Source: Arenicellaceae bacterium (GTDB lineage Bacteria; Pseudomonadota; Gammaproteobacteria; Arenicellales; Arenicellaceae). From it: a stretch of DNA of 52,440 bases. A program made the translations under genes and the position numbers. Below, in pieces: positions 10,838 through 52,440 of the stretch. The notes under the pieces were generated by a model, which was given only the letters and a program-made list of their open reading frames with translations, made no database searches and had not been told where the DNA came from. Each line of letters begins with the position of its first letter. Position 1 is the first letter of the stretch. Location of the stretch: contig JAQWNC010000025.1 of assembly GCA_029246505.1 (NCBI GenBank), forward strand, positions 1-52,440, in the 5' to 3' direction.

Positions 10838-11839
10838 CTACGTATCGAAACAATTCCACGGCTCGACCTGTTCGCCGGGGATCCACACCCAATTCCGGCG
10901 GCCGACCAAAGGCTCGATAAACGTCGCCGGATCGGTGACCGTCTGCGTGTAATCGAGCCGGCTCTCATTCGGGCTCAGCGTGAAGCGCTCAAGGAGTTCT
11001 GCGTCGGCACTCAGAGGAATACCGGAACCGAAGTGCATGAAGTTGATATGGGTAGTGGTGATAATGAGGTCACCACCATCCCAGTGACCCACCGAATAAC
11101 CCAATGGCGATCGCAGCGGTTCATTTGTCACAGGCTCCATATGAATGACGCGCACGAGATCGTATTCCTCGATGCGCAGATGAATCTCATCCCCCTGGTC
11201 GACGAACTCGAATGGATAAGGATTCGTCATGATCATCGGCATCCCTTTCGGTGTGCAACCTGGGATCGGGTTGTCGGCGACCGGGTCGTATGCCTCTCTC
11301 GCAGCCTGAGCGGATTCGGTCAATGGATAACCATTCTCCAGGACGAGCCTAATACCTGCATCGCGGCTCCAGACGCGGAATACTCCATTTGCTGCCTCTT
11401 CGGCTGCGCTCACTTCGACCGCCGAGAATTCGGTCGCTACAAGAGCGATCGCGCCCTCTGACCAGCGCGGTTTAGCTGCTGGCTGGATGAGCACTTCTTC
11501 ACCGCCGGGAAGCTGCAGGTTGCTGACCTCCATGGCGTCGGCGGCTGAGCGCGCGGGCGGGCCTGCCACCCGTACCCGTGTCCCAACCGTCAATACGTCA
11601 GGACCCACCCCGCGGCGCGACAACATCGCGGGCGGCGTGGTCTCAAGTGTCCATTCGTTGCCCTGATCATCTTCGAGCCAGAATCGAGTATGTGGGTTTC
11701 GAAAGATCACGCGGGTGATTACGCCCTGCGTTTCTATGACCTTGGTCATGTCATAGAAAGTCGCTCTTGAATGATGTGCCGCAGACTCGAAAACAGCGCA
11801 ACTGAGCAAGAGCGCGGCAAAGAGACATCGAGTGATCAT
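10838..11839 (-). CDS. DUF6152 family exported protein, copy 1
   Basis: An exported protein of about 333 residues. A signal peptide (LFAALLLSCAVFESAA) is followed directly by HHS, so the mature chain probably begins His-His-Ser. The N-terminal domain has VIETQGVITRVIFRNPHTRFWL, a DUF6152 OB-like pattern with an Asn-Pro-His motif. The C-terminal domain carries PGCTPKGMP, PYPFEFVDQGDEI, YSVGHWDG, ERFTLSPNESRLDYTQTVTDP and a final WNC. The two cysteines could form a disulfide. I start at the ATG at 11839, with AGAAGAAA upstream, instead of the longer TTG start at 11869. It follows an ASST gene in an apparent operon and is unusually G+C-rich. Function is unknown. Confidence 0.85.
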   Translation of the reverse strand: MITRCLFAALLLSCAVFESAAHHSRATFYDMTKVIETQGVITRVIFRNPHTRFWLEDDQGNEWTLETTPPAMLSRRGVGPDVLTVGTRVRVAGPPARSAADAMEVSNLQLPGGEEVLIQPAAKPRWSEGAIALVATEFSAVEVSAAEEAANGVFRVWSRDAGIRLVLENGYPLTESAQAAREAYDPVADNPIPGCTPKGMPMIMTNPYPFEFVDQGDEIHLRIEEYDLVRVIHMEPVTNEPLRSPLGYSVGHWDGGDLIITTTHINFMHFGSGIPLSADAELLERFTLSPNESRLDYTQTVTDPATFIEPLVGRRNWVWIPGEQVEPWNCFDT

Positions 11840-11855
11840 TGTTAGTTTTTTTCTT

Positions 11856-13274
11856 CTACTGTGGCTCAATGCGAAATTCGCTCGGGTGTGGTGGTACCAC
11901 GGCCCGCTCCTCCGGTATATCTAGCTGCGGAACCCAATCATAAGGGACACGGAAAGCGCGATAGATGTTGTGCCGTGTATTGTCAGACGCATAGAAATAC
12001 GGGTTGAGGTATTCCCAAACGATCTCGCCATCAACGGTAACCTCGAAGGCCCGACCAGCCGATCCTTCGGTTATCAGCGTGTTGCCATTGGGCAAGCGTT
12101 GCGCCGCACCGACATTCCAACTAAGAAATCGAAAACTGCTATGACCGGACATTGAATACTCCCAGACGATTTCTATTGTTACCGGATCAATCTCGAGCAC
12201 CCTTGAGCTGCGTCTCGCGACATTGTTTCGACCATCTGGGGCAACTGGAGTCGGCTCACCGTAGCCTGCTGCACCGCCGTTATCGAACACCATAAGATTT
12301 CCCGCTCCGGGCAGGCCGGTGGGGATAATATGCGGATGGTGCTGGCCGATCACCTGACCAACTTCCAGTAGTGCCTCGGTTTCTCGGAAATCAGGACCCA
12401 TCCGCCAGACAATCTCGCCATTGCGGGCGATAATGGCGACGATATTGGCGTGGCGGGCGGAGATGAGCACATTGTCTGGATGAAAACGCTCATCGCCTTT
12501 GTCGTACCAACGATTGGGTCCAAGGTAAGTCGCAGAATTGATGTGTAGCCAATCCTGGCTTCGAATGACAACATCCATGTCTACTCCTGTTGTAAGCGGT
12601 CTGCTGTCGGCACCGCTTTGTCGAATGGCACGCCTGGCTGCCTCGGAAAGACCCATCTCTTCGATATGATCGCTGGCCAGCCAGTCCCAAAGCACCTCGC
12701 CATCCCAGGAGACTTCCAGGATGTAATCGTCATTGAGACGTCTACCGCTGATCTCTGGTACCGTCACATTCTTATGTGCGAGAATAAGTGTTTTGCCATT
12801 CGTAATAGCGGGGCTACTGCCAGGGGCGTAATATCCCGCATGAAAACCTTCGCGTTGCCAGTCATGATGCAACCGTGCGGACCAAATGGTGGCCGCGTCT
12901 TCGGTTTCCATTTGTTCGGTTTTATTAAAGCTCCAGATAACATTGCCTTCCCAGTCCACCTGAACCAGCTCGGCCCCGTCATTACCGTTGGGAGATTCCT
13001 CCGCTGCCACCCCTATGATGTACCCTTCTGGCAAAATTCTGCCCAGGCCGACGACGTCAGCCCATCGCCGGACGATGTTGCCGTTCATATCGATTAACAC
13101 CACACCCTTGTCGTCGGGAGTTCGATAGACTGTGTAACCGTTCCAGGCCTTGTCCGGGTGGTAGATTGTCGTGCCGGTCGGGTAGATGGTGGGGGCCGCT
13201 AGAGTGGCCGAGGAAATCATCCCCGCCATGCACAACCATGACAATGAGAACAGCCAGCCTTTTTTTCGAGTCAT
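11856..13274 (-). CDS. Arylsulfotransferase-like (ASST) beta-propeller protein, exported, copy 1
   Basis: A 472-residue protein with a signal peptide (residues 1-26, ending TLA), so periplasmic. ASST enzymes pass sulfate from one phenol to another without PAPS, using a histidine in a six-bladed propeller. Repeated blade motifs are visible: GVVLIDMNGNIVRRW, AELVQVDWEGNVIWSF, YILEVSWDGEVLWDW, IVAIIARNGEIVWRMG and AFEVTVDGEIVWEYLNPY. Conserved-looking histidines include ARLHHDW, DWLHINSATYLG and GQHHPHIIP. Which is catalytic cannot be assigned without alignment, and sulfotransfer is inferred from family only. GGAG lies 8 bases before the ATG. Its stop lies 16 bases before the start chosen for DUF6152 copy 1. 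It belongs to the G+C-rich block. Confidence 0.8.
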   Translation of the reverse strand: MTRKKGWLFSLSWLCMAGMISSATLAAPTIYPTGTTIYHPDKAWNGYTVYRTPDDKGVVLIDMNGNIVRRWADVVGLGRILPEGYIIGVAAEESPNGNDGAELVQVDWEGNVIWSFNKTEQMETEDAATIWSARLHHDWQREGFHAGYYAPGSSPAITNGKTLILAHKNVTVPEISGRRLNDDYILEVSWDGEVLWDWLASDHIEEMGLSEAARRAIRQSGADSRPLTTGVDMDVVIRSQDWLHINSATYLGPNRWYDKGDERFHPDNVLISARHANIVAIIARNGEIVWRMGPDFRETEALLEVGQVIGQHHPHIIPTGLPGAGNLMVFDNGGAAGYGEPTPVAPDGRNNVARRSSRVLEIDPVTIEIVWEYSMSGHSSFRFLSWNVGAAQRLPNGNTLITEGSAGRAFEVTVDGEIVWEYLNPYFYASDNTRHNIYRAFRVPYDWVPQLDIPEERAVVPPHPSEFRIEPQ

Positions 13275-13294
13275 TTCGTCTCCAAAAATTTAAT

Positions 13295-14395
13295 TCAATT
13301 CTGCGGCCCGGGCGAAGGCTGGCAATCGTAGGTTTGGATTTGCTGCAGCTCTGCGGGTCGGAAGAAGCGCTCCCAACTTATCGGTTCCGAAAAAGTCACT
13401 GGGTCCTCAACCGTGAAAATGGCCTCAAGGAGCGGTCCTTCTTCCAGTACCCGGTAGCGTTCCGTGACAAGAAGCTCATCACTGTGTGGCGGGCCACCCA
13501 CCCTCAACGTGTAGCCGGCCGTGATATGGCTAGTCTGGATAAGTACCTCACCACCGACGTATCGACCAGTTGAGAATCCATTAATAGTATGTGGGGTTTC
13601 AGACGGCGGCGTACGCCCATCCATATAGATTGTCCGCACCGCATCCCAGTGCTCCGTAAGTACCCTTAGGTGATCGCCATCCTTGGTAATCTGTATCGGC
13701 GTCGGGCTGTTCATCGATACCGTCAAGGTAGGTTTCTCGCAGCGCAGCCCGGGGTCATCTGTGGGCAGGCGATTCGCCCACGCCTCGCGCCCTGCTTCCG
13801 TCAGAGGCGCATCTCTGAAGTTCATCCGTGGGGCGGGGATATCTAGCACATTACGCGATGAGCCGGTGTTCGGTTGCCAAACAATATCAAGCCCGGGCCA
13901 TTCCCCATCGGTCCTCAGGGCTATATCGACCGTCGTTGGCCTTCCGTGGAGGTTGTCGTTTTCGGAACCCAACCCCGCTGGAGGAGTAGGCGAGCGAATT
14001 TTGCCAGTTGCTAAGTCGTTGAATAAATGTCGTGTCCAGCCGTCAGGCATCACGATATCGTCCGCCCGAATGAGCGTTTCGTCATTGAAACGCGCGGGCG
14101 CCCCAACGATCGCGATATGGTCACCCGGCTTAAGGTCATCGGCCAACCATCCTCGGCCACGGCGCATGCCGACCCAACCGGGCATCTCGGCTCGCCATTG
14201 CTCCAACTCGCCTTCCTCATTGACCACGTTGAGAACAACATAGCCATGGGGGTTCTGTGCCATGAACTTCTCGACCACACCCTCTATTCGGATTCGTTCA
14301 TCCACCTGGAAGAACGAGATATACGAGTGATGAGCCTGTAGCGGCCAAGCACCTCCCAATAGCGTTGCGAAAACACCCATCAAAACTCTCTTCAT
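13295..14395 (-). CDS. DUF6152 family exported protein, copy 2
   Basis: About 366 residues. The signal peptide ends LQA and the mature chain would start HHSYISFF. The N-terminal domain has IRIEGVVEKFMAQNPHGYVVL and later DHIAIVGAPARF, the conserved G-P-A-R end of the OB-like domain. The C-terminal half is more divergent than copy 1 but keeps the first Cys (GLRCEK), a FSTGRYVGGEVLIQTSHI segment, ERYRVLEEGPLLEAIFTVEDP and a final YDC. GAGGAG a few bases before the ATG at 14395 supports that start over the TTG one codon earlier. It lies 20 bases ahead of the ASST gene. Function is unknown. Confidence 0.82.
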   Translation of the reverse strand: MKRVLMGVFATLLGGAWPLQAHHSYISFFQVDERIRIEGVVEKFMAQNPHGYVVLNVVNEEGELEQWRAEMPGWVGMRRGRGWLADDLKPGDHIAIVGAPARFNDETLIRADDIVMPDGWTRHLFNDLATGKIRSPTPPAGLGSENDNLHGRPTTVDIALRTDGEWPGLDIVWQPNTGSSRNVLDIPAPRMNFRDAPLTEAGREAWANRLPTDDPGLRCEKPTLTVSMNSPTPIQITKDGDHLRVLTEHWDAVRTIYMDGRTPPSETPHTINGFSTGRYVGGEVLIQTSHITAGYTLRVGGPPHSDELLVTERYRVLEEGPLLEAIFTVEDPVTFSEPISWERFFRPAELQQIQTYDCQPSPGPQN

Positions 14396-14478
14396 CAACT
14401 CCTCAACCGAGCATTATCTTCTCACGCCGATACTGATTGTATACGGATTGGAACCCTAACGATCATCCTCGTTTAGCA

Positions 14479-15522
14479 TCAGCTAGCTCTATCTGGGTGG
14501 ACACAGTTATATTCTCCGACGGGGTCGGACGTAGCGCCCCGACGCAGACTACCTGTCACGACCTCAGTGAAATACGGCGAATCGTCGGCTACCCATGACA
14601 CCTCGAGAACCTGGCCGTCATCGCTCGGGGTCAAGCGCTCCACCGTGTGCAATTGGTTACTGTGGGGCAGCCCGGGAAACTGGAAGAGCACGCCGGCCTC
14701 ATAGCCAACGGTATCGATCATTAGCGTATTTCCTTCATACCGGCCAATCGAGTGCCCGAGCGGAGTGTCGGCAATGTTCTGTGGATGCTCACTCTGATCC
14801 AGATGTACGATCCGTTGCACATCCATAAATTCGTGATGAATCAACACGGTATCGCTAATTTCCTGTATCTGCATTGGGCTGCCATGGCCCCACAACCGCG
14901 CGATACTGACGGGTTTACACTGCAAGCTCGGGTCATCGGTGATCGGGTCATACGCTTCCAGTGCACTGCGTCCTAGGTCGGAGAGTATCGCTGCGCGGCG
15001 ATTCGGTTCGCCTGGCAAGGGCGGACCGCCACCACCGGCATTTTCTCTTATGACCGATCCCCAGGTGCGACTGAGACTCGGGTTACCGCCTTCGGACACG
15101 CGCGCCTCGCCTGCCGGGTTGGGGCCATCGGCGAGGGCTTCTTCTGAGAAACGCTCGACTCGCGCAATACGCGTGCCATCCTCCAAAACGCCGGAGAGGT
15201 AGTAGCATTCGTTTTCGTTTGTTGTTGGGGGATTGGCGTTGATGACGATGCGCTGTCCAGGCTGGAATAAGTCTTTCGTCCACCCATATCGAATTGCAGA
15301 CGCCGCATTGATAAGATCGCAATTCCATGTGACGGTATTGCCATCGTCATCGGTGGCGTCTACGAACAGGCGTGAATGAGGATTGACGAATTGATATTCT
15401 TTGACGACTCCCTCGATGGTGATCTCAGCATCGATGTCAAAATGCCAGGTCCTCGAATGGTGTCCGTAGGCCGCAGTGACGAACCCAACTGTTAATAAAA
15501 AACCAAAAATCAACTTATCCAC
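14479..15522 (-). CDS. DUF6152 family exported protein, copy 3
   Basis: A 347-residue exported protein starting at GTG, supported by GGAG 7 bases upstream. The signal peptide ends AYG and is followed by HHSRTWHFD. The N-terminal domain shows ITIEGVVKEYQFVNPHSRLFVDA and TWNCDL. A long loop rich in Gly and Pro (about residues 130-175) precedes the C-terminal domain: SLQCKPVS, GSPMQIQEISDTVLIHHEF, GHSIGRYEGNTLMIDT, HTVERLTPSDDGQVLEVSWVADD and the final YNC. It is the first gene of the G+C-rich block in transcription order. The extra Cys in TWNCDL is not seen in the other copies. Confidence 0.82.
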   Translation of the reverse strand: MDKLIFGFLLTVGFVTAAYGHHSRTWHFDIDAEITIEGVVKEYQFVNPHSRLFVDATDDDGNTVTWNCDLINAASAIRYGWTKDLFQPGQRIVINANPPTTNENECYYLSGVLEDGTRIARVERFSEEALADGPNPAGEARVSEGGNPSLSRTWGSVIRENAGGGGPPLPGEPNRRAAILSDLGRSALEAYDPITDDPSLQCKPVSIARLWGHGSPMQIQEISDTVLIHHEFMDVQRIVHLDQSEHPQNIADTPLGHSIGRYEGNTLMIDTVGYEAGVLFQFPGLPHSNQLHTVERLTPSDDGQVLEVSWVADDSPYFTEVVTGSLRRGATSDPVGEYNCVHPDRAS

Positions 15523-15669
15523 TAATCTCTCCTCTTGTGAAAAGTTATGGCATTAAAACTCACAGAGTCATTCTAGATTACATTATCTAGAGCAGTTCAA
15601 AATAAACTTTTATTTAGAGATGCTAGCAGTAATTGGTCGAATTAGCGTAAATTCGCCAAAAACTCATGA

Positions 15670-21364: not shown

Positions 21365-22993
21365 TTAATCATCCAGTTCAGTATAGACGATCCGCCCACC
21401 CAGTATGGTTAGAACCGACGACAAATCAATAATTTCATCTTCAGGGACTTCGAAGTAATTATCGCTTAGTACCGCTAAATCAGCTAGTTTACCGACCTCA
21501 ATCGAACCAATAGTGCTTTCGTCGCGAGAGAACCAGGCGCTACCCAGAGTATATAATCGTAACGCTTCAATTCGATTTATCTTCTGATCAGCATTTACCG
21601 GGTTTCCCACAACATTCTTCCCACTCACCATGTAATAAATCGAATACCAGGGGCTCATAGGCTGCGCGTTAGTACTATCAGTTCCGGCTCCTACCGGCAA
21701 TCCACTATCAACCAACATACGCAGAGGCGGGCCTGCTAATTTGCTATCAACATTACCTCGATTCAAATATCGATGATCTTGAACCGTAACCCCTGCCCCT
21801 AGCGACTGTAAACGTGAAATTATATCCGGGGTAATTTGATGCACATGAGTTAAAGACCAGCGTAGGTCCCCAATAGACGCGATTTCATTCGCCTGCTCAA
21901 AAGCCGCAAGATGTGCCAAGTTTTCCTCGGAAGAACTTGAATGTTGCTGCAGTGACCAGCCATTTCGAGCCGCAAGCGCTGTAGCGGCAATAAATGGTGC
22001 ACCCTTGTTGTTAGAGACAGTATGTTCACCCAAGGCAACTACACGCAGCATATCATCGCCAAAACCCATCACTGAGTTGCGCACTCGCTGCTCAATTTCT
22101 GAATCGCCACTACCGTCGCCAACGTTGTCGTCCCAACTCATATACATTAAGCGCAATCGGACACTAGTCTGATTTTCACGCCAGAGTTGATAAATAGTTT
22201 TGTAGTCCTTGTCAGATTCAAATAGCTGCGCGCCCGGACGATTAGTGCCTGCAGCATCAATAATTGTGGTTAGGCCTAAACTATTAGCATGGCTCATAAA
22301 CTCAGTAGCACCGCGCCGGAGATCAGCCTCAGTCTGACTAGCTTTAAGCACATCCCATGCAGCAATTGCATTACCCGGGCCCCTACCCATAGTAATCATT
22401 CCATCAGTAGCCACGGCGATACCTTCAGCTTCTAATAAAGCTTTACCCGTTGAATTGGTAACCCCTGGCCCGTTTGCTCGAAGGTGCATATAAACCGGAT
22501 GATCCGGCGCCGCACCGTCCAGCTCGATAAGTGTAGGAAATCGATTCTCGCCTAAGAACTGTACTGGATCCCACCCGCCTACTATTGATATTAACTCTCC
22601 ATCAGGAACACCCACCGCCCGTAGGGATATAGCCTGCAACAATTCGTCAATTGAACGCGTGCTTTCAACCGTCCGCAGATCATGCCCAGGACGCAAAGTT
22701 CCACGTACAAAATGCATATGCGAATCAACTAAACCAGGCACTACAGTTCGACCATTCAGATCAATTACCTGGGCGTCAGGAGCAGTAGCCGGAGAGATAT
22801 CACCCACCGAAACAAATCGGCCATCTTCAATTAGTACGCTATTCACAACGGTATTCTCACTATCCAAAGTGATGATGTTTCCGTTTACCAGCAAGATAGG
22901 CTGGGTGTCTTGCGCCAACAATGTATTACTGCTTAGGCTGAAGCCTATGCAGCACATAACACTTACAAATCGACTAACCGTGAATATAGACAT
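21365..22993 (-). CDS. Exported amidohydrolase, YtcJ-like (amidohydrolase family 3), copy 1
   Basis: A 542-residue metal-dependent hydrolase with a signal peptide (about residues 1-27, ending LLA), so periplasmic. The TIM-barrel metal site appears as VDSHMHFVRG near residue 90, with further His residues in LGEHTVSNN, LQQHSSSSEENL and LTHVHQITPD, and the Asp in VGAGTDSTNAQPMSPW. The C-terminal composite domain carries IGSIEVGKLADLAVLSDNYFEV. Family members hydrolyse amides or act on N-acyl and cyclic compounds; the substrate is unknown. GGAG lies 9 bases upstream. It appears to be the first gene of an operon with OsmC, Bug and TctAB. A second gene of the same type starts at 41255. Confidence 0.9.
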   Translation of the reverse strand: MSIFTVSRFVSVMCCIGFSLSSNTLLAQDTQPILLVNGNIITLDSENTVVNSVLIEDGRFVSVGDISPATAPDAQVIDLNGRTVVPGLVDSHMHFVRGTLRPGHDLRTVESTRSIDELLQAISLRAVGVPDGELISIVGGWDPVQFLGENRFPTLIELDGAAPDHPVYMHLRANGPGVTNSTGKALLEAEGIAVATDGMITMGRGPGNAIAAWDVLKASQTEADLRRGATEFMSHANSLGLTTIIDAAGTNRPGAQLFESDKDYKTIYQLWRENQTSVRLRLMYMSWDDNVGDGSGDSEIEQRVRNSVMGFGDDMLRVVALGEHTVSNNKGAPFIAATALAARNGWSLQQHSSSSEENLAHLAAFEQANEIASIGDLRWSLTHVHQITPDIISRLQSLGAGVTVQDHRYLNRGNVDSKLAGPPLRMLVDSGLPVGAGTDSTNAQPMSPWYSIYYMVSGKNVVGNPVNADQKINRIEALRLYTLGSAWFSRDESTIGSIEVGKLADLAVLSDNYFEVPEDEIIDLSSVLTILGGRIVYTELDD

Positions 22994-23287: not shown

Positions 23288-23839
23288 CTACATAGGTACA
23301 ACTGCCACAGCTTCAACTTCCAGTAGAAATCTTGGGTCAGTTGCTAGTCGCACGATTTCGACTGAAGTACTTGCAGGACGATGATCATCTCCCCAATAAC
23401 TATTCATTACGCGATTAATTTCATCTTGATTCTCGCCAATATCGACCACAAAACGAGTCACCTGGATAATATCTGTCAGCTCCCCACCAGCGGTTTCCAT
23501 AGTTAGCTTTAAGCGCTTCATAATAGATTCAGCTTGCGCCGCAGCACTAAAGTCGAGGCCATCAAATTCCGCAGCCACATGTGGATGGCTATGTGGAACA
23601 GGAGCTGCAGTTATACCCGATAAAAATACTATATTTCCTTGTCGAACTTTTATAGCTGAAGTAAATGGCATATTTACGCCAGCCGCTGGCTCAGTACCAG
23701 CCAAATGCACATATTCAAAATCCACACCTTCCACACTGCCTACACTTTCCACAATCTCTACGCTATCGCTACTACAGCTAGCCAGGAATATAGGAAATAC
23801 GACGAGTAGACCGGCACCAAATTGATTAATTCTTTTCAT
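23288..23839 (-). CDS. Exported Rid-family lipoprotein, copy 2
   Basis: A Rid protein of about 183 residues with a lipoprotein signal (GAGLLVVFPIFLASC). The start at 23839 is chosen because GGAG lies 9 bases upstream and the signal peptide begins there; a longer frame starts 30 bases earlier. The Rid core contains IVFLSGITAAPVPHSHPHVAAEF and VEIVRLATDPRFLLEVEAVAV, with the RidA-type Arg and Glu retained. The HSHPHVAAEF stretch closely matches HQHPHVAEEF of copy 1, so these two form a subfamily. It is on the same strand as, and downstream of, the TonB receptor gene, but a strong terminator separates them. Confidence 0.85.
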   Translation of the reverse strand: MKRINQFGAGLLVVFPIFLASCSSDSVEIVESVGSVEGVDFEYVHLAGTEPAAGVNMPFTSAIKVRQGNIVFLSGITAAPVPHSHPHVAAEFDGLDFSAAAQAESIMKRLKLTMETAGGELTDIIQVTRFVVDIGENQDEINRVMNSYWGDDHRPASTSVEIVRLATDPRFLLEVEAVAVVPM

Positions 23840-26974: not shown

Positions 26975-28057
26975 CTACTGAGCGGCGCTTGTTAGGACGC
27001 AGTCGTATTTAACCATACCCTCATTAAGATCAACCCAAACTCCTGTTTTAATAAAGGGTGCGGTTAGCATTACCGGGTCCGTAATGGTGACCTTATAATC
27101 CATTCGTGATTGGTCTTCACTTAGCGTATAGCGCTCCTTAAGCACCACCTGCTCGCTTTGACCATATCCGCCTAAATCTAAATACGGGTAGTTTATTCGA
27201 GTAGTCTCTACTAGCAATGTGTGTTCGTTTTTCCAGTTAGCTATTGAATAGCCTAACGGAGAAAATGGCTGTTCAAGCGGGTTTTCTACCGACTGTAAAT
27301 GCAATGTTCGAGTTACATTATATCCTCCAGACACAAATAAAATTTGATCACCACCATCAATAAACTGATGCGGATGCGGTCCATGCATAACTTTTGGTAA
27401 ACCAGGTAATTCGCAGGCAGCGTCGAACACGTAGGGATCCCAAGTTTCCTTAACCGCTTTAGCAGCTGCAGTAGCAATCTCAGCTAAAGGAAGTGCGTTT
27501 GGGTCGACAATTGCAGTTACCGAATTAGCCCCTGGAGGGCTCCATACTCTGAAGAAGCCCTTACCCTTTTCGATTCCAGATGAATCGCGGAAGGCTGTAT
27601 CTGACCATTTGTCACGCCCGCCAACCAGCTCGTCAGCCCAACGAGGATTACCACGGGCAACTACTAATACTTCTACCCGCTCTTCAGACAAACGCCCTGC
27701 GGGTAACAGAACATTAGTTAGCCAAAACTTATCCTCAAATAAAGTAGAACGATTACCGGCTACACGCAACTCATCTCCAATCTCAAACATATCACGGGTT
27801 ACGCCTGCGCGACCAAGCATATAAACAGTACCTGCCTCCATTTGCCATGTGACTTTTTCACCGTTGTCCTCGGTAACTTCTAACACAAAGTATATATGCG
27901 GATATCTCCAACGCAGTTCGACCAAAGTACCTTCCATTTCAGTAAATTCTTTAGAGAAATGGGTAGTTGAATGATGAGCTAGTAAAAAACTAGCCGGCAA
28001 CGCAGTCAAAGCTGCCATGATAGAAAGCATTAAAGCTATCGACTTTAATTTTCTCAT
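26975..28057 (-). CDS. DUF6152 family exported protein, copy 4
   Basis: About 360 residues. The signal peptide ends SFLLA and is followed by HHSTTHFS. The N-terminal domain shows MEGTLVELRWRYPHIYFVLEV, so the N-P-H motif is Y-P-H here, and DELRVAGNRSTL. The C-terminal domain holds DAACELPGLPKVMHGPHPHQFIDGGDQI, YSIANWKNEHTLLVETTRI, ERYTLSEDQSRMDYKVTITDP and a final VKYDC. I start at the ATG at 28057, with GGTGA upstream; a TTG-initiated frame overlapping copy 5 by 16 bases is less likely. It is the last gene of an operon with DoxX, a VOC protein and copy 5. Base composition is like the bulk of the window, unlike copies 1-3. Confidence 0.83.
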   Translation of the reverse strand: MRKLKSIALMLSIMAALTALPASFLLAHHSTTHFSKEFTEMEGTLVELRWRYPHIYFVLEVTEDNGEKVTWQMEAGTVYMLGRAGVTRDMFEIGDELRVAGNRSTLFEDKFWLTNVLLPAGRLSEERVEVLVVARGNPRWADELVGGRDKWSDTAFRDSSGIEKGKGFFRVWSPPGANSVTAIVDPNALPLAEIATAAAKAVKETWDPYVFDAACELPGLPKVMHGPHPHQFIDGGDQILFVSGGYNVTRTLHLQSVENPLEQPFSPLGYSIANWKNEHTLLVETTRINYPYLDLGGYGQSEQVVLKERYTLSEDQSRMDYKVTITDPVMLTAPFIKTGVWVDLNEGMVKYDCVLTSAAQ

Positions 28058-28086
28058 TAGTTCACCTAGCTCCTTCACCAAGCTTA

Positions 28087-29112: not shown

Positions 29113-29116
29113 TACC

Positions 29117-29611
29117 TTAGTAATCAAGAAACTTTCCTTGTAATGAATCCGCTGGATACTCGGACAGTTCAATACGATGCCCGTTCAATTCAGTAACATT
29201 GGACAAGACCGCATTAGTTCCACCACTACGAATTTCAGATACGTCCGCACCAAACCCAACAAACCTTTCTCTAACTACTTCCATATTAGCAACCTGTAAT
29301 CCAAAATGATTAATGCCGGCGGGACGGTTTTCATTTTCTGGCTGCAACTCAACAAACGTGTCCGCGCTTATTTGCATATATACAAGCGCTGTTTCACCCG
29401 CTGGGTTGGTTACCCTAAAGGCCTCTGGAAACCCCAGGGTAGTTTCATAATAGCTTACCGCAGCATCTAAATCCGGCACACTAATCCCAACATGGTTTAG
29501 CTTGAACTCACCATCACCAGGAGCGACTGCGTTCCCTTGTGATTGTGCAACGGCCAATTGCACAGCAAACCCAAATACGGCACCACCAACAAATAAATAT
29601 AATCCTCGCAT
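29117..29611 (-). CDS. Exported VOC (glyoxalase/dioxygenase superfamily) protein
   Basis: A 164-residue protein with an N-terminal signal (FVGGAVFGFAVQLAVA) followed by one VOC module. Likely metal ligands are His in KLNHVGISVPD, Glu in TFVELQPENE, His in INHFGLQVAN and Glu in HRIELSEYP. VOC proteins include lyases, isomerases and ring-cleaving dioxygenases; an exported copy is uncommon and its reaction cannot be read. GAGAGG lies before the ATG. It is 33 bases after the DoxX gene and 4 bases before DUF6152 copy 5, strongly suggesting a shared transcript. Confidence 0.82.
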   Translation of the reverse strand: MRGLYLFVGGAVFGFAVQLAVAQSQGNAVAPGDGEFKLNHVGISVPDLDAAVSYYETTLGFPEAFRVTNPAGETALVYMQISADTFVELQPENENRPAGINHFGLQVANMEVVRERFVGFGADVSEIRSGGTNAVLSNVTELNGHRIELSEYPADSLQGKFLDY

Positions 29612-29644
29612 GCTATACCTCTCTAGAAATTGATTAAATTAAAA

Positions 29645-39211: not shown

Positions 39212-40294
39212 ATGATTCACAGGAACACCGGGCTGCTGCAAAGTGATCGCAGCCTAGCAACACCAGGCTATAGAATATTTTCTCCGCTTGGCCTATCCAG
39301 CACATTGTTAATCAATATGTCTGGTGAGGTTGTGCATTCTTGGGATCTTCCCTACGAGCCGGGAAATTACGGATATTTGTTACCTAGCGGCAATATGCTA
39401 GCGGCTGTTCGCACCCCTGATGGCCCAAAAGGTCTGCCCGCCAAAGGCGGCTTAATGCAAGAAAGAGATTGGGATGGAAATCTCTTATGGGAGTTTCACG
39501 ACAGCTACCAACATCATGATTTTCGTCGGTGCAAGAATGGCAATACGCTTTACTTACGCTGGGAATTAATCCGCGAGGAAAATCACAAACGAATTCAAGG
39601 CGGACAGCAAGGCAGCGAACACGCCGACGGTATATGGGGTGATGTCATCCGCGAAATCGAACCTGATGGTAAGGTCGTTTGGGAATGGCGAGCAGAAGAT
39701 TGCGAAGAAATGTACTCATTTCCAATTAATCCGATGTGCCCACGTCATGAATGGTGCCACGCCAATTGCATTACCCAGCAGGATAACGGCGATATATTGA
39801 TAAATTTTCGATATAACCACTTGATGGCAATCATTGACTATAAAACCAAGAAATTTAAGTGGCATATGTGCGACTACTCATACGGTCAGCAACACAGTGT
39901 CTATATGATCGAAAATGGTAACATCATGTTTTTTGCGAATGGCGCTAAAGTTCTGGGCGTAGGGCCCGAAGGCGGCTCACGGGTAATAGAACTTGACCCA
40001 AAATCAAAGCAAGCTGTGTGGCAATACGCTGGCTCACCACGCTTTTCATTTTTTAGCTGGTTTATTAGTAGCGCACAAAGACTAGCTTCCGGAAACACAT
40101 CGATCCTTGAAGGTATTAAGGGTCGGCTGATTGAAGTAACCCCGGATGGGGAAATAGTTTGGGAATATATTTCTCCACACTATGTCACAAAAAAACACCC
40201 TATGTACACCGGTGGCAATTGCATTTTTCGAATCTATCACTATGGACCAGATTCGTTAGAAATCGCTGGCCGCTTACCTGCCGATCCCTGGTAA
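39212..40294 (+). CDS. Arylsulfotransferase-like (ASST) propeller protein without signal peptide, copy 2
   Basis: A 360-residue protein with ASST blade repeats: STLLINMSGEVVHSWDLP, GLMQERDWDGNLLWEF, DVIREIEPDGKVVWEW, LMAIIDYKTKKFKWHM, RVIELDPKSKQAVWQY and RLIEVTPDGEIVWEY. Candidate active-site His are in SYQHHDFRRC, HEWCHANCI and GQQHSVYMIENGN. Unlike copies 1 and 3 it has no signal peptide and several cysteines, so it should be cytoplasmic. ASSTs normally work in the periplasm, so this protein may do something else with a propeller scaffold. It lies 15 bases after the nitroreductase and 26 before the GST, in one operon. The ribosome site is weak. Confidence 0.8.
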   Translation: MIHRNTGLLQSDRSLATPGYRIFSPLGLSSTLLINMSGEVVHSWDLPYEPGNYGYLLPSGNMLAAVRTPDGPKGLPAKGGLMQERDWDGNLLWEFHDSYQHHDFRRCKNGNTLYLRWELIREENHKRIQGGQQGSEHADGIWGDVIREIEPDGKVVWEWRAEDCEEMYSFPINPMCPRHEWCHANCITQQDNGDILINFRYNHLMAIIDYKTKKFKWHMCDYSYGQQHSVYMIENGNIMFFANGAKVLGVGPEGGSRVIELDPKSKQAVWQYAGSPRFSFFSWFISSAQRLASGNTSILEGIKGRLIEVTPDGEIVWEYISPHYVTKKHPMYTGGNCIFRIYHYGPDSLEIAGRLPADPW

Positions 40295-43031: not shown

Positions 43032-43050
43032 GTTTGCCTAGTTTTACAAT

Positions 43051-44730
43051 TTAGTTAGGATAGATACTCGGTAAACGATCTACTCGATATACAGACCAAC
43101 CTAAGCCTTCGTCCTTAAACTGCAATTCCCAAACTTTCTCTCTGGCATCATCGCTAGTTACTTCAAACCAACTGGCCCAACGCTGTGCCTGACCAGGAGG
43201 TACATTCGTATTGGTTCCAGGAGCAGTTTCCCGAGCACCAGAATTAATTAGAATATTGCCAGTGGTAGGGAGCCAATCAATATCCCCTAGATATCGATTG
43301 TAATAATGCTCCTGCTCTAACCCATATGCCCAAGGCTGAGATACTTCCATAGTTTCTTCGTTCACAGCATACTCAACGCCGCGCGAATAACTATCAGCCA
43401 GAGGCATGCTGTCAGCATATGGCATGGTGCGATCTACACCATTGTCTAATAATAACAGAGTGCCACGACCGCTGTGAGAAATAGCGTGGTGTTTGTAAGA
43501 CCATTCCACATCGCCCACCGGCGTCAGTAGCTTATCCGCATATTCCTCGCTCCAGGCTTCATGAGTTCCCAATATCCAAACCAGCTCACCGCTACTCATA
43601 GATACTTTTAACACTGCATTTTGATAAGGCATAGACATAATAAAGGAGTTATCAGATTCATCGTAAATTATGGCATTACCATGGGTGTAGTCGTAAACGA
43701 TACCTTCGTAGCGGCCGTCGTAGTGGTTTGCCCAATAATCTTCACGCAGAGAACCATGCGTAATACGATAAGGATCGATAAGATCCAGAAGCTTCCACTC
43801 ATTGACAACCTCGCCATCACGGGTAATCTCAATAATGACATCACCGACCAGTTGGGCTCCATCCTGACGCGGTGCGTTTGCGTCGCGGGTACTGGTATGC
43901 CAATTGTCGTAGGCACGCACTTCTGAACTCATCACCAAAAAATTACCATTAGGGATTTCGATCATATCGTGGTGAATTGAATCGCTCTCAACGGCTATGC
44001 TACCTGGTGCAGGATCTTTAGCCGTGCCGGTAAAGTGCCAGCGGTTAACAATGTTTCCAAGTAGGTCAATCTCAACCATGCCACCAGTTCCAGGCCAGAT
44101 TTCATATAGAAAATTGCCGTTACTAATTCTTTTAATATCGTGTAGCAGGTGCCCTTCCGGCTGGTAATACCAGATGGTCTCACCTTCATTATCGACAATT
44201 ACTGCGGGCAGTGAATCGGCCCATTTTTCTGGCCAGCGTCCATTTACGTTAAAAAGATTCACGCCTGGCTCCATACGATCAGGCTGGCTCACAACAACAT
44301 GTGGTCGTGGGTAAAACTCTGGTAGTGCTGGCGTTTCGAAGACCTGAGTTTCAGTAACAGTAACATTTCCAGCCGCGTCAGTTAGCGAGGCGGTGATTGT
44401 ATGCGCAAGACTTGGCCGCATGCCCACAACTGGAAGTTCATGGGATGTAGACATATCACTACCCATACTGTGCGACCATGCTTTTGAGCCATCATCAAAC
44501 CTTAGAACTACACTAGCCGGTTCGTCCGTTGTAAAACTAAGTACTGCTGCTAACGGAACAGTAGGGTTTGGATTTTGTACCAAACTCAGATCGCTAACCA
44601 CCGGCCCAGCCGTATCAGCTGCGCCCCCTTCTGCAGTAGTCGCAGAGTCATCAAGTGAGCTACCGCAACCGTAAAGCAAAGTGGCTGACCCAAAAACTAA
44701 CGCTGTGAACAACCGTTTACCTTGAAACAT
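43051..44730 (-). CDS. Arylsulfotransferase-like (ASST) lipoprotein with N-terminal Ig-like domain, copy 3
   Basis: A 559-residue envelope lipoprotein (signal ALVFGSATLLYGC, Cys22). Residues about 40-130 form an Ig/fibronectin-like domain (VSDLSLVQNPNPTVPLAAVL, VVGMRPSLAHTITASLTDAAG), as in E. coli-type ASST. The propeller follows, with SLPAVIVDNEGETIWYY, GGMVEIDLLGNIVNRWHF, DSIHHDMIEIPNGNFLVMSS, DVIIEITRDGEVVNEW, DYTHGNAIIYDESDNSFIM and YKHHAISHSGRGTLLLLDNG. Candidate catalytic His are in IHHD, THGN and HHAISH, the pattern expected for aryl-sulfate sulfotransferase. This copy is the closest of the three to canonical ASST. No dsbL/dsbI partners are nearby. AGGAG lies 12 bases upstream of the ATG. 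Confidence 0.85.
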   Translation of the reverse strand: MFQGKRLFTALVFGSATLLYGCGSSLDDSATTAEGGAADTAGPVVSDLSLVQNPNPTVPLAAVLSFTTDEPASVVLRFDDGSKAWSHSMGSDMSTSHELPVVGMRPSLAHTITASLTDAAGNVTVTETQVFETPALPEFYPRPHVVVSQPDRMEPGVNLFNVNGRWPEKWADSLPAVIVDNEGETIWYYQPEGHLLHDIKRISNGNFLYEIWPGTGGMVEIDLLGNIVNRWHFTGTAKDPAPGSIAVESDSIHHDMIEIPNGNFLVMSSEVRAYDNWHTSTRDANAPRQDGAQLVGDVIIEITRDGEVVNEWKLLDLIDPYRITHGSLREDYWANHYDGRYEGIVYDYTHGNAIIYDESDNSFIMSMPYQNAVLKVSMSSGELVWILGTHEAWSEEYADKLLTPVGDVEWSYKHHAISHSGRGTLLLLDNGVDRTMPYADSMPLADSYSRGVEYAVNEETMEVSQPWAYGLEQEHYYNRYLGDIDWLPTTGNILINSGARETAPGTNTNVPPGQAQRWASWFEVTSDDAREKVWELQFKDEGLGWSVYRVDRLPSIYPN

Positions 44731-45663: not shown

Positions 45664-45757
45664 CAATAAATTCAGAATATTTAGAAATAAACCGACATGC
45701 CTGACCGGCATACCCTAGTACTTCAAGGTCAGCGCAGTAACCATAAAGGAATTTATT

Positions 45758-47245: not shown

Positions 47246-47264
47246 CTGATTAGGAGAAAAAACT

Positions 47265-47387: not shown

Positions 47388-47390
47388 ACG

Positions 47391-47522: not shown

Positions 47523-47604
47523 GCAATTGACTGGGTATTAGAACTTTAACTGCTGATTAATCCTCGGTGCTCCGCTAAGGCCCCAAACTGGAGAAATAGA
47601 TTAG

Positions 47605-50580
47605 ATGTACTTGTATACACTTCTTTACGGAATTGTACTCGCGTTACGATTCACCGCTCTGTTGCACCCAGACTTCAGAAAACGTTTAAAAGAGCATGAC
47701 ATGGTCGTGCAAATTAAGCTGGAAAACAACAAAGTTGGCCGCTACTACATTATCAAAGACGGAAAAATTTCTACCAAATCAGCAATTCATCCTAAGCCTG
47801 ATGTAACCATGTTTTTTAAGAACCGGAGAATCGCTCAGCGGGTTCTCACACCTCCCAATGACTATGGGGAACTAGTGCACGCCGGCAAGAACTTCCAAAT
47901 GGGAGCAACCGGTGAGGACAAATTAGTTTGCTGGTGGATGATCACACTCGGAAAACTGCTGTCATCGGGTTGGAAAGTTGGCGTTAAAATGCCCAACGGA
48001 GAAACACGACTGGTCAACAACACTAACGGCGGGCCCCTGTATGTCTATGTAAAAGACGGCAAAATTATCCGAACAACTCCAATTGAACTCGATAATGACG
48101 ATGCACCTTCTTGGACGGTTTACGCTCGCGGTAAAGAGTTTAGGCCACCACGACGAGCAACAGTACCAGCCTACTCTCTTGGTTGGAAATCAATGATTAA
48201 CTCGAAGGAACGAAACCTCTACCCAATGAAACGCGTAGATTTCGATCTAAATGGGGAACGAAACCCACAGAACCGCGGCAAATCAGGATACGAAAGGATT
48301 AGCTGGGATGAAGCGCTGGATATAGTCGCAGGAGAGTTTAAACGTGTTAAGCGAGATTGTGGCCCAGGTGCCATCGCACTTAGCCATGGGTCACATCACA
48401 ATTGGGGCAATGTAGGCTATTACCTAAGCGCCATGCTCCGGTTTTTCAATGGCATCGGCTTTACTCGCGTTATGCATAATCCAGATAGCTGGGAAGGCTG
48501 GTATTGGGGTGGTGTCCACCATTACGGCCATAGTATGCGGCTTGGAAGCCCTGAGCCCTTTGGTCAGGTTGAAGACTGTCTTAAAAATGCTGAAATGATT
48601 GTATTCTGGTCCAGTGATCCGGAAGCAACTAATGGATTGTATGCTGGCTATGAAGGCACCATACGCCGACTCTGGGCCAAAGAACTCGGAATCAAGATGG
48701 TGCATATTGATCCGCACTGGAATCAAACTGCGGGCTTTTTTGGTGGTAAGTGGATCGCACCAAAACCTGGCACCGACCCAGCACTAGCGCAAGCCCTATG
48801 CCACGTATGGATAGAGGAAGATCTGTATGACAAAAATTTTGTCGAAAACCGCACAACCGGGTTCGACGAATGGGCCGCGTATATTATGGGCCAGGGTGAT
48901 GGCACTCCAAAATCACCTGAATGGGCAGCGTTGGAAACGGGTATTCCAGCACGCGATATTCGAGCACTCGCGCGTGAGTGGGGCAAAAAGAAAACCTACC
49001 TTGGTGCTGGTGGATTAGGCGGAGGTTTTGGTGGAGCATGCCGCACTGCCACAGGAACTCAATGGGCCCGAATGATGGTCATTTTGATGGCCATGCAGGG
49101 CTTGGGAAGACCTGGAATAAATTTTGGAAACCTGCAACAAGGGGCTCCTCACGATTATACATTCTGGTTCCCGGGCTACGCAGAAGGCGGCATTTCTGGT
49201 GACCTCACGCATACAGGTAGCGCATTGGTCACCTACCCGCGTATGCCACATGTAATGAGTATGAATAACTGCAAACAAATAGTATCTCGCCTTCAATTAC
49301 CAGACGCAATTCTAAACGGTGAAGCCGAAGGCTATCTGACTGACCCAACGTCAATGCATGGACAGTTTTCATCTTTTAAATACCCTGCCCCTGGACATTC
49401 CAAGATTCAAATACTTTATAAATACGGTGGCGCGTCAATTGGCACGATGAACAACTCCAACCGGTGGATTCAGATGTATCAATCTGAAAACCTCCCATTT
49501 GTAGTAAGCCAATCAATTTGGTTCGAAGGAGAGACAAAATTTGCCGACATTATTTTACCCGCGTGTACTAACTTTGAGCGTTGGGACATAGGTGAATGGG
49601 CCTCCGCCGGTGGATACGGACATCAATTCTACAATCAGGTAAATCACCGTATAGTTACTTTGCAGGCCAAGTGTCAAGAACCTGCTGGGGAATCAAAATC
49701 TGATTACCAAATATTTCTTGAGCTAGCCAATAGAATGGGGCTTGGCTTATATTTTTCTGAAGGCTGCACCGAACTGGATTGGGCCAAGCGTATTTTTGAT
49801 GCCTCTGACGCATCCAAAATGGTCTCATGGAAAAAGTTTATCAAGAAAGGTTACTACGCTATCCCACCCGACGAACCGGAGGCTCGCGCCCCAACCGCTT
49901 TTAAGTGGTTCTACGAAGGGCGCAAAAAGGATGTGCCCGAGCCACACCCGTTGCCAGCTGATTATAGCGAAGAGTTTCAGAAGGGTTTGCAAACGCAATC
50001 CGGGAAAATTGAATTCATTCCAGAATCATTGAAGAAATTTGACGACCCGGATCGCCCGCCGCTAAACAAATACATGCCTAGCTGGGAAGGCACTCAAACT
50101 ACAGATTTACTGAAGAAATTTCCGCTGCAGTTGATTTCCTCACATGCCCGATATAGCTTTCATACATTGGGAGATGGTAAAGACAGCACGATTAACGATA
50201 TACGCGATCACCGTATGCTCATCGACGGGTACTATTATTGGATTGCTCGAGTAAACAAATCCGACGCAAAAGCGCGAGGCGTTAAGCACAGCGACTTAAT
50301 TACATTACACAACGATCGAGGCTCCGTAATTTGTGCAGCCTATCTAACCGAACGCGTCAGGCCAGGGGTTGTACAGGCCTATGAATCATCGGCGGTCTAT
50401 GAACCCGTGGGCGAGCCAGGCAAATCAACTGACCGTGGCGGCTGTGTAAATCAATTAACTAGTCAACGCTCACAGTCTAAAAAATCCTCTGCCATGGCAC
50501 CTAATGCCTGCCTCATCGACTTTAAGCCTTATTTGGCGGACACTACCACTCGCAACACTACTGCGGAGGCTCACACATGA
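47605..50580 (+). CDS. Molybdopterin enzyme, transhydroxylase-like large subunit with SCP2-like N-terminal extension
   Basis: A 991-residue bis-MGD enzyme of the DMSO reductase superfamily. Residues about 30-110 resemble an SCP2 sterol/lipid-binding module (VVQIKLENNKVGRYYIIKDG, GKNFQMGATGEDKLVCWW). The Mo domain follows from about 210 (YERISWDEALDIVAGEFKRV) and lacks the N-terminal Fe-S cysteine motif. HHNWGNVGYY (His265) and NPDSWEGW (Asp294, Ser295) match my memory of the pyrogallol-phloroglucinol transhydroxylase site, where Ser binds Mo and Asp and His act in catalysis. The SCP2-like part is not in that enzyme as I recall it. No Tat signal is present, so it is cytoplasmic. The ATG of the Fe-S subunit overlaps its stop by 4 bases. 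Confidence 0.85.
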   Translation: MYLYTLLYGIVLALRFTALLHPDFRKRLKEHDMVVQIKLENNKVGRYYIIKDGKISTKSAIHPKPDVTMFFKNRRIAQRVLTPPNDYGELVHAGKNFQMGATGEDKLVCWWMITLGKLLSSGWKVGVKMPNGETRLVNNTNGGPLYVYVKDGKIIRTTPIELDNDDAPSWTVYARGKEFRPPRRATVPAYSLGWKSMINSKERNLYPMKRVDFDLNGERNPQNRGKSGYERISWDEALDIVAGEFKRVKRDCGPGAIALSHGSHHNWGNVGYYLSAMLRFFNGIGFTRVMHNPDSWEGWYWGGVHHYGHSMRLGSPEPFGQVEDCLKNAEMIVFWSSDPEATNGLYAGYEGTIRRLWAKELGIKMVHIDPHWNQTAGFFGGKWIAPKPGTDPALAQALCHVWIEEDLYDKNFVENRTTGFDEWAAYIMGQGDGTPKSPEWAALETGIPARDIRALAREWGKKKTYLGAGGLGGGFGGACRTATGTQWARMMVILMAMQGLGRPGINFGNLQQGAPHDYTFWFPGYAEGGISGDLTHTGSALVTYPRMPHVMSMNNCKQIVSRLQLPDAILNGEAEGYLTDPTSMHGQFSSFKYPAPGHSKIQILYKYGGASIGTMNNSNRWIQMYQSENLPFVVSQSIWFEGETKFADIILPACTNFERWDIGEWASAGGYGHQFYNQVNHRIVTLQAKCQEPAGESKSDYQIFLELANRMGLGLYFSEGCTELDWAKRIFDASDASKMVSWKKFIKKGYYAIPPDEPEARAPTAFKWFYEGRKKDVPEPHPLPADYSEEFQKGLQTQSGKIEFIPESLKKFDDPDRPPLNKYMPSWEGTQTTDLLKKFPLQLISSHARYSFHTLGDGKDSTINDIRDHRMLIDGYYYWIARVNKSDAKARGVKHSDLITLHNDRGSVICAAYLTERVRPGVVQAYESSAVYEPVGEPGKSTDRGGCVNQLTSQRSQSKKSSAMAPNACLIDFKPYLADTTTRNTTAEAHT

Positions 50581-51416
50581 AAAAGTGGAATATGATTGTA
50601 GATGTTGCTCGTTGCCATAATTGCTACAACTGCTTTATTACAACCAAGGACGAATACGTCGAACAAGAGCACAAAGGTTACACTGGCCCCCAACCCTTAC
50701 ATGGACATTCCTGGGTCGATATGGAATACCGTGAAAGCGGCGAATGGCCAATAGTTGAAACCAATTTTCGCCCAGTAATGTGTAACCACTGTGATGATGC
50801 ACCTTGTATGAAGGCAGCAACCGGCGATGCGATCAAAAAACGCGACGACGGCATCGTAATAATTGATCCAAAGAAATCAAAAGGGCAAAAACAAATAGTC
50901 GACGCTTGCCCATACGGCGCAATTTATTGGAATGAAGAGGAACAGATTCCACAGGCTTGGCCATTTGATGCTCATTTGCTCGATCAGGGATGGGAGAAAA
51001 CAAAAATAGAAATATCTTGCCCTACTGAGGTTCTCAAATCGGTAAAAGTAACCGATAAAAAAATGCAGCAAATAGCGAAAGAGGAGAACCTGACCACTTT
51101 AGAACCCCGAATGGGCGCAAAACCCCGGGTTTACTATAAAAATAACCACTTGTTTGAAGCATACTTTATTGCAGGCACTGTCGTTACTAATATCGAAAAT
51201 CGAGAAGAATGCCTCGAAGGTGTGACTGTCACAGCCGTAAGAAACGAGGAAATCATCGGTAGTGCCGTAACTGATGGTTTTGGCGAATTCAAGATTAAAA
51301 AAATCTACCCTGACGCTAACTCAATCACACTAAAAGTTGAACATGAAGGAAAGATTGTCAAAACTTTGGGGGTTCCGTTAGAGGATAGTACATACATAGG
51401 TTGTATAGAAATTTAG
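50577..51416 (+). CDS. Transhydroxylase-like Fe-S subunit with transthyretin-like C-terminal domain
   Basis: A 279-residue electron-transfer partner of the Mo subunit. Cysteines sit at 13, 16, 19, 69, 72, 77, 111 and 148: RCHNCYNCF, MCNHCDDAPC, DACPYG and ISCPTE. That is enough for two 4Fe-4S clusters. Residues about 195-279 form a transthyretin/Cna-B-like beta domain (LEGVTVTAVRNEEIIGSAV, TDGFGEFKIKKIYPD), which is a hallmark of the pyrogallol transhydroxylase beta subunit. At AWPFDAHLLDQGW, where I recall a C-x-x-C in that enzyme, both Cys are missing, so one cluster may be lost. GGAGG lies 8 bases before the ATG, inside the upstream gene. Confidence 0.88.
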   Translation: MKKWNMIVDVARCHNCYNCFITTKDEYVEQEHKGYTGPQPLHGHSWVDMEYRESGEWPIVETNFRPVMCNHCDDAPCMKAATGDAIKKRDDGIVIIDPKKSKGQKQIVDACPYGAIYWNEEEQIPQAWPFDAHLLDQGWEKTKIEISCPTEVLKSVKVTDKKMQQIAKEENLTTLEPRMGAKPRVYYKNNHLFEAYFIAGTVVTNIENREECLEGVTVTAVRNEEIIGSAVTDGFGEFKIKKIYPDANSITLKVEHEGKIVKTLGVPLEDSTYIGCIEI

Positions 51417-51427
51417 TAGCTCTATGA

Positions 51428-52204
51428 ATGGCTAGTAATAACAAAAATACCGGGGCGCGTGGAATTCAAGTAATTGCACGAGCAGCCAATGTACTTCGGT
51501 CTTTGGAAAGGGAATCGGAAGGTCTCAGCTTACGTGAAATTGCAGACAAGGTTGGCCTGGCGAGATCAACTGTTCAACGTATAGTCGGTGCCCTGGTTAA
51601 TGAGCAGCTACTCATTTCAGCAACACCAAATGCCAGAGTAAAGTTGGGTCCTTCTCTGATTAGACTTGCTGCCTCAGCAAGTATTGACGTCGGCGAGCTA
51701 CTCAAACCCTATATGCAGGACCTTTCTCGTCTGGTCGAAGAAACGGTTGATCTATCAGTATTGAAGGGCAAGAGAGCGATGTTTATAAATCAGGTATCAG
51801 CCCGTAATCGGCGCTTGCAGGCTGTATCCCATATTGGTGATGCATTCCCCTTACATTGTACTGCGAACGGTAAAGCACTAATGGCAACAATGTCAGAGAC
51901 GGATCTGGATAAATATCTAAAGGCCGAATTAGAGAAATTTACACCGAACACCATAACCGATGTCATTCAGCTAATTACAGAAACCGAAGATTTCCAACAG
52001 AACTTCGTCGCAATAGATCGAGAAGAACATACAGAGGGCATATGTGCAGTGGGCACATCTTTTAAAGACCCCTTTGGTCAAGTTTTGGCGCTATCAGTTC
52101 CAATACCTTCGCATAGATTTTCTCGAGTCGAAACACTAGTTAGCCAGGCACTGATCGAATGCCGGAATGAGATAATCTTTACTTTAGGAAAGCAATCTAA
52201 TTAG
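51428..52204 (+). CDS. IclR family transcriptional regulator, copy 2
   Basis: A 258-residue regulator. The winged helix is RGIQVIARAANVLRSLERES, then LSLREIADKVGLARSTVQRI, and the ligand domain holds DLSVLKGKRAMFINQVSARN, FPLHCTANGKALMA, and EEHTEGICAVGTSFKDPFG. It starts 11 bases after the Fe-S subunit on the same strand, so it probably belongs to the Mo-enzyme operon and may autoregulate it. No clear ribosome site is seen; translation may depend on coupling. It is not close to IclR copy 1 in sequence (different recognition helix region), so the two probably sense different ligands. Confidence 0.92.
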   Translation: MASNNKNTGARGIQVIARAANVLRSLERESEGLSLREIADKVGLARSTVQRIVGALVNEQLLISATPNARVKLGPSLIRLAASASIDVGELLKPYMQDLSRLVEETVDLSVLKGKRAMFINQVSARNRRLQAVSHIGDAFPLHCTANGKALMATMSETDLDKYLKAELEKFTPNTITDVIQLITETEDFQQNFVAIDREEHTEGICAVGTSFKDPFGQVLALSVPIPSHRFSRVETLVSQALIECRNEIIFTLGKQSN

Positions 52205-52229
52205 TCGAATCGCCGCGCTTAATGTTGCG

Positions 52230-52440
52230 TTAACGCAAACTAAGAAACCGACTCGCTGACTCTAGGTCGCATTTATTCATGTACATCTCCAATTCTGGAG
52301 AGTAGATCAAACTCCTCGAATGAGACATGGGTTCAGTCAAGTACTCCGGGTCTTCCAAAATAAACTCTGCTTCAAGACGGGTTCCATTTTCATTTAAGCT
52401 ATAACGTTCAGTAACGTGTTTTTGTGTACTTGACGGCACT
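52230..52440 (-). CDS. DUF6152 family protein, copy 7, C-terminal fragment
   Basis: The last 69 codons of a minus-strand gene that continues past the right edge. It carries SSTQKHVTERYSLNENGTRL, then EAEFILEDPEYLTEP and the terminal Cys in MNKCDLE, matching the C-terminal domain of the other DUF6152 copies, especially copy 6. The apparent start at the window edge is just an in-frame GTG; the true start is outside. It converges with IclR copy 2 across 25 bases, where a 14-bp palindrome (TTGCGTTAACGCAA, 52225-52238) overlaps its stop codon. Confidence 0.78.
   Translation of the reverse strand, partial: VPSSTQKHVTERYSLNENGTRLEAEFILEDPEYLTEPMSHSRSLIYSPELEMYMNKCDLESASRFLSLR

Follow-up and report, generated by a model that had tools for sequence, protein, structure and literature searches.

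The stretch analysed here (the window) is 52,440 nucleotides long and corresponds to contig JAQWNC010000025.1 of an Arenicellaceae genome (assembly GCA_029246505.1, the source genome). It carries several genes of DUF6152 (Pfam PF19649), an unstudied exported family with many diverged, clustered copies. The DUF6152 genes of the window encode an exported two-domain protein whose domains are found either fused or on adjacent genes. This protein may be a metal-binding head (domain 1) placed on a barrel for a lipophilic ligand (domain 2) and diversified as a repertoire of ligand-binding proteins. Acceptance and doubt are evenly balanced for this reading, which combines predicted folds with a putative metal, a putative ligand and a putative role deduced from sequences and models.

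Two-domain architecture, mature N-terminus and predicted folds

The six full-length DUF6152 genes of the window all pass the Pfam model (52-72 bits; gathering cut-off, 27). Each encodes a fusion of DUF6152 with domain 2, and all lie on the reverse strand: 10838-11869 (343 amino acids (aa), 56 bits), 13295-14398 (367 aa, 61 bits), 14479-15522 (347 aa, 72 bits), 26975-28102 (375 aa, 52.5 bits; 16-base overlap with the next gene as called), 28087-29172 (361 aa, 57.5 bits) and 31370-32440 (356 aa, 66 bits). A preliminary description of this DNA had counted seven genes. The seventh is a fragment (52230-52439, reverse strand, 69 aa) that corresponds to domain 2 of a further copy truncated at the edge of the contig, whose DUF6152 part would lie beyond it (E 8e-21 with a profile built here; E 6.7e-9 in the domain-2 search). 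Genes were called as greedy longest open reading frames rather than with a trained gene finder, and start codons may be misplaced.

The two-domain architecture is well supported. In the window and 43 fetched stretches of the source genome, 63 fused genes, 30 short DUF6152 genes and 22 standalone domain-2 genes were counted (greedy calls, some of them fragments). Within the fetched stretches, 17 of the 22 standalone genes have a short DUF6152 gene next to them in the same orientation. Domain 2 has 89 matches in the whole source genome. Its sequence includes two invariant or near-invariant cysteines and an invariant Arg and Glu; the standalone form starts with Gly-x-Trp. Among 48 genomes searched, domain 2 was present in 21, exactly those with strong DUF6152, and was found neither in nine genomes with a weak single DUF6152 nor in 18 without DUF6152; 19 of the 21 positive genomes had been fetched via the family, and the unbiased positives are G291 and G355 only. 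According to record titles, the pair of separate genes is found in Bryobacterales, Sphingomonas paucimobilis and gammaproteobacterial metagenome-assembled genomes (MAGs), and the fused form in gammaproteobacterial and other MAGs.

A pair of histidines (HH) and then PH were found in 172 of 178 DUF6152 proteins, collected with a profile built from short HH-containing copies, which favours HH-bearing members. HH is preceded by A, G or S in 91/91 proteins of the source genome and 80/81 related proteins (171/172 overall). Position -3 relative to HH is nearly always a small or aliphatic residue, and the 9-mer of highest hydrophobicity usually ends 4-10 residues upstream. In this context a signal-peptidase site fits exactly ahead of His-His, so the mature protein should begin with His-His (rule-based reading of the sequences, no SignalP or other trained predictor). 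In the 10838-11869 gene, HHS occupies residues 32-34. Among 185 other signal-peptide-like proteins from stretches of the same genome, read by a similar rule, His is at +1 in two and HH in none. The His of a downstream NPH motif is invariant in 54 aligned long proteins and near-invariant across the family.

The AlphaFold2 model of the 10838-11869 fusion (54 sequences) has a mean predicted local distance difference test score (pLDDT) of 90.8. Residues 42-122 (domain 1) match PriB OB folds (VIA Z 9.6; root-mean-square deviation (rmsd) 2.0; 77 residues aligned), and residues 161-332 (domain 2) match fatty-acid-binding proteins (FABPs; Z 9.2, rmsd 2.8, 112 aligned). For a standalone domain 2 (pLDDT 86.6), the best 50 matches of each list are all FABP/CRBP/CRABP-type chains, plus SAHS and UnaG, with VIA Z 9.5-10.1 over 113-115 of 131-133 residues. 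The domain 2 model has helices between strands 1 and 2, which is the lid layout of FABPs. Domain 1 is thus predicted to be an OB fold and domain 2 a barrel with a helical lid, of the FABP type. A sequence search of the PDB gave no match below E 0.16; its top three hits are OB-fold proteins.

Domain 2 resembles FABP, CRBP and CRABP in its predicted barrel, the helices between strands 1 and 2 and the Gly-x-Trp start. It differs from them in lacking a Pfam sequence match, in being exported and bacterial and in its two (near-)invariant cysteines. A literature search for FABP-like exported bacterial proteins found none; a predicted exported bacterial barrel of this shape bears on the history of the FABP fold. 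For domain 1, the predicted small exported OB fold with its putative metal recalls CusF/SilF, which are small exported periplasmic OB-fold Cu/Ag chaperones. The ligands of CusF are internal His, Met and Trp, whereas the candidate site of DUF6152 uses an N-terminal His.

Copy number, spread and the single-copy form

The source genome (2.64 Mb, 30 contigs, 97.5% complete) has 100 DUF6152 matches in a whole-genome search, four of them with stop codons and two more spanning only about half of the model. A neighbouring copy lies within 2.5 kb of 45 of the 100 (random mean 16.7, maximum 33; 1000 simulations), in agreement with the preliminary description, which had proposed an extracytoplasmic family in clustered copies rather than random scatter. 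Ten contigs, 505 kb together, are free of DUF6152. One unstudied family thus accounts for about a hundred genes in 2.6 Mb; in this genome and in those with at least 85 matches described below, a notable share of the exported proteins is without known role. A literature search (supplements not covered) found no paper on DUF6152, PF19649 or DUF6644, and one on paralogous families in Solibacter gave nothing relevant by title.

A second genome of the same genus (88% complete) has 40 matches; the remaining 19 of the 21 genomes searched in the taxonomic family have none. In a sample of 274 genomes of the class, six have a match: the source genome and five others that have a single copy each. In a survey of 109 genomes of the order, seven have one: both genomes of the genus and five with a single copy. 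The 45 genomes reached via related loci, all chosen for holding the DUF6152 family, have from one to at least 85 matches each. Ten of them have at least 85 (counts above 85 are lower bounds; first-look candidates, 93-192). Copies per genome in many lineages probably range from tens to well over a hundred. A MAG titled Klebsiella pneumoniae (L089, L117) has 53 matches; its label looks wrong.

A quick tree was made of 64 fused proteins of the source genome and 42 of the 48 related ones of the alignment (A5). The labels of origin change 31 times along it (shuffled mean 33.4, range 23-40), a mixing as thorough as in shuffled labels, and 32 of the 64 copies are closer to a relative than to any paralogue of their own genome. 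Such mixing makes the repertoire look old and the copies anciently diverged. The idea in the preliminary description that each copy might be tuned to a variant would fit this old divergence.

The simplest form seen is DUF6152 with a small DUF6644-like membrane protein. Loci were taken from all ten genomes outside the genus in which the surveys of the class and the order had found DUF6152. In nine of the nine that lack domain 2 (six genera), DUF6152 is accompanied in the same orientation, at about 110 bp or less, by a gene for a DUF6644-like membrane protein. These nine genomes were found with the Pfam model, not with the HH-derived profile, and DUF6152 reads HHGW and NPH in all of them. The L158 partner is split into two pieces that lie in different reading frames. 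Plasmids of Azospirillum brasilense and Cupriavidus campinensis carry the same pair (loci L154-L164). Pfam assigns the four sphingomonad partners scanned firmly to DUF6644. Of three other partners from single-copy or plasmid loci, two match DUF6644 weakly (25.9 and 18.4 bits; cut-off, 27) and one does not; the assignment of the remaining partners rests on a profile built here. None of these three weakly matching or unmatched partners hit CopD (Pfam, E ≤5).

In one single-copy genome, the upstream gene on the same strand is CopG-like, matching structure 6WIS (E 9.7e-28), which is the copper protein CopG according to the available part of PMC7558416. Beside the DUF6152-domain 2 pair of S. paucimobilis, the opposite strand carries two divergent genes, one TonB-receptor-like (by eye) and one for a HupE_UreJ_2 permease. 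The TonB-receptor-like gene separates the permease gene (L109:2216-3469) from the pair; for the permease gene, the N-terminus of its product looks like a signal peptide followed by a His (ADA, then HD). Downstream of the DUF6152-DUF6644 pair of L162 (908-5152) are an RND-pump-like gene (by eye) and a gene for a CusB/HlyD-type fusion protein (PF16576).

Gene neighbourhoods and proposed role

Two families are enriched near DUF6152 in the source genome. Of the 11 strong loci of PF07969 amidohydrolases, nine have a DUF6152 gene no more than 6 kb away (random mean 2.9, P 0.0004; loci from 12 of 25 rows, 13 weaker rows excluded). For a family of NHL-type six-bladed propellers, picked because it recurs near DUF6152, 13 of 19 members have one at 3 kb or less (random mean 3.1; none of 5000 simulations reached this number; 19 members from 22 rows, with fragments merged and one weak row excluded). 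The preliminary description had proposed recruitment beside propeller and hydrolase genes. This stands for the amidohydrolases and also for propellers, which are, however, of the NHL type and not ASST.

ASST and Rid, which had been expected to be enriched as well, are not significantly so. Three of five ASST and three of five Rid matches of the genome are on this contig (about 2% of the genome), yet genome-wide 3/5 ASST and 2/5 Rid genes lie within 6 kb of DUF6152 (P 0.12 and P 0.39; five genes each, little power). On the positions in this genome, both were rejected as general partners of DUF6152.

Neighbours were tallied without genes of less than 95 aa, the controls being the 134 given of 150 drawn from 207 genes of at least 95 aa. 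SGL propellers (9/134 neighbours versus at most 2/134 controls) were set aside: the SGL model has two matches genome-wide, and the NHL-type profile built here fits the group better. Sulfatases gave no clear signal (4/134 versus 3/134). Cytochromes c and TonB receptors each account for 4/134 neighbours. A family of exported proteins of about 225 aa adjoins a DUF6152 or fused gene in 5/5 places of the fetched stretches (L010:14541-15218, L014:5132-5860, L014:8721-9422, L018:6163-6846, L044:6112-6771) and is found in none of the control stretches. In related loci it lies within about 210 bp of a gene of the DUF6152 family in 3/3 occurrences. All eight places are in loci selected for holding that family. 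The one member scanned has no Pfam match.

The proposed reading is as follows. Removal of the signal peptide would expose His-His at the mature N-terminus, so domain 1 is a probable site for a transition metal, with copper as the likeliest candidate; the ligands would be the amine and imidazole(s) of the N-terminus and the NPH His, which is near-invariant. The barrel of domain 2, probably closed by a disulphide, would probably hold a lipophilic organic molecule. With an expansion to tens or more than a hundred copies, the likely role is that of a repertoire: the exported proteins would differ in the lipophilic compounds, free or complexed with metal, that they capture or process. The prediction is a mature N-terminus of His-His, one metal per protein and a lipophile in the barrel. 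A bolder version, tentative and unlikely, is that of a new class of exported metalloproteins, with an N-terminal-His OB domain and a FABP-like barrel, in which the metal would act on the lipophile or be recognised with it. The roughly 100 ancient copies per genome would then be a bacterial counterpart of the odorant-binding and P450 repertoires of animals.

Signal cleavage exposing a metal-binding His has precedent in DUF4198, DUF6702 and anglerases (PMC12537917, available part). The likeness lies in the mature N-terminal His and in further conserved potential ligands. DUF6152 differs in lying outside the four families described there and in its predicted OB fold, His-His, fused barrel and hyper-expansion.

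Several results weigh against the reading as a metal- and lipophile-binding repertoire. The collecting profile, as said above, favours HH-bearing members. Foldseek E-values are weak: at E ≤0.001 there are no PDB matches for the long model and one for the standalone model. Domain 2 matched no family in Pfam, lipocalin and FABP included (E ≤1, eight proteins), nor in NCBIfam (E ≤0.1, four proteins); on these scans it merits a family entry of its own. A clear copper gene was found at only one of the nine DUF6644-linked loci (the other eight mostly read by eye). In the stretches of the source genome, a single-sequence search found no DUF6644-like gene, and the sole HupE-like gene seen is in a control stretch without DUF6152. 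Orthologue-like copies share any neighbouring gene with a relative in just 10 of 63 pairs (best six hits per query, some queries counted repeatedly, flanks of relatives at most 6 kb). This weakens the case for particular substrates, led to the rejection of conserved catabolic operons and makes a fixed module unlikely.

The preliminary description had proposed such a module, in which DUF6152 would act with ASST, Rid and hydrolases on one class of substrate. Tight packing in the window, the share of ASST and Rid matches on the contig and the amidohydrolase association are consistent with it. The proposal is now very improbable, ASST and Rid not being enriched near DUF6152 in the genome and neighbours being mostly unshared. 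Moreover, the four consecutive genes at 10838-15522 (DUF6152, ASST, DUF6152, DUF6152) have 54-57% G+C and their flanking genes 42% and 44%, so this cluster looks separately acquired and is, by its composition, probably an import.

Metal handling only is a fairly unlikely alternative. DUF6152 would be a periplasmic CopC-like carrier to a membrane partner, domain 2 would be structural or would bind a metallophore, and the copies would serve metallophore uptake. The N-terminal His-His, the DUF6644-like partner in 9/9 single-copy genomes and the CopG-like gene beside one of them point this way, as do the ABC transporter genes upstream of two loci (of FecCD type in L158 according to Pfam, and in L160, from the same genus, on reading by eye) and HupE_UreJ_2 beside the pair of S. 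paucimobilis. However, about 100 copies should be far beyond the needs of metal homeostasis, the enrichment in the expanded genome concerns propellers and amidohydrolases, and the only candidates for metal transport in the 25 commonest neighbour families are the TonB receptors. CopC-CopD and YcnI, as described in the available parts of PMC7558416 and PMC8424229, resemble the putative DUF6152 metal carrier in associating an exported copper protein with a membrane partner, an N-terminal His being found in YcnI and many CopC. They differ in that the DUF6152-locus proteins scanned have no Pfam match to CopC or CopD, the copper context is seen at 1/9 loci and domain 2 has no counterpart in the systems described there.

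An enzymatic function is decidedly unlikely. In that case the N-terminal-His site would be a mononuclear copper oxygenase or peroxygenase, to which domain 2 would present a lipophilic substrate. Histidine-brace proteins do include oxygenases (PMC10952591, available part), and the substrate-like diversification and hydrolase-type neighbours fit. On the other hand, several N-terminal-His copper proteins are non-enzymatic (available part of PMC8424229), and no conserved redox partner was found, cytochromes c being present among the neighbours at the level given above.

Other genes of the window

All genes listed in this paragraph are on the reverse strand. An ASST-like propeller gene lies between two DUF6152 genes of the GC-rich block (11856-13274; PF14269, 87 bits; PF05935, 80 bits; G+C 54%). 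A gene for a YtcJ-type amidohydrolase, of the family enriched near DUF6152, is at 21365-22993 (PF07969, 218 bits). Upstream of the 28087 copy, at 29117-30073, are a VOC/glyoxalase-like gene (29117-29611, PF00903) and a DoxX gene (29645-30073, PF07681). A gene for an exported Rid-family protein adjoins the 31370 copy (32456-33031; PF01042, 53 bits, match at 32471-32812).

Further ASST-like matches are at 39455-40171 and 43234-44040 (both PF14269) and further Rid matches at 2655-3038 and 23297-23668 (PF01042). Three ASST-like genes and three exported Rid genes had been noted from the sequence, and Pfam upholds all six, as it does the VOC, DoxX and amidohydrolase calls. The N-termini of the three Rid proteins look like export signals, two of them of the lipoprotein type (read by eye).

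Directly downstream of the GC-rich island and on the same strand, 6411-10816 holds a CrtC/lipocalin-9 gene (Pfam), a permease-like gene (by eye) and an ABC ATPase gene. At 47605-52204 are molybdopterin-oxidoreductase-like and ferredoxin-like genes, then a gene for an IclR-type regulator (by eye only).

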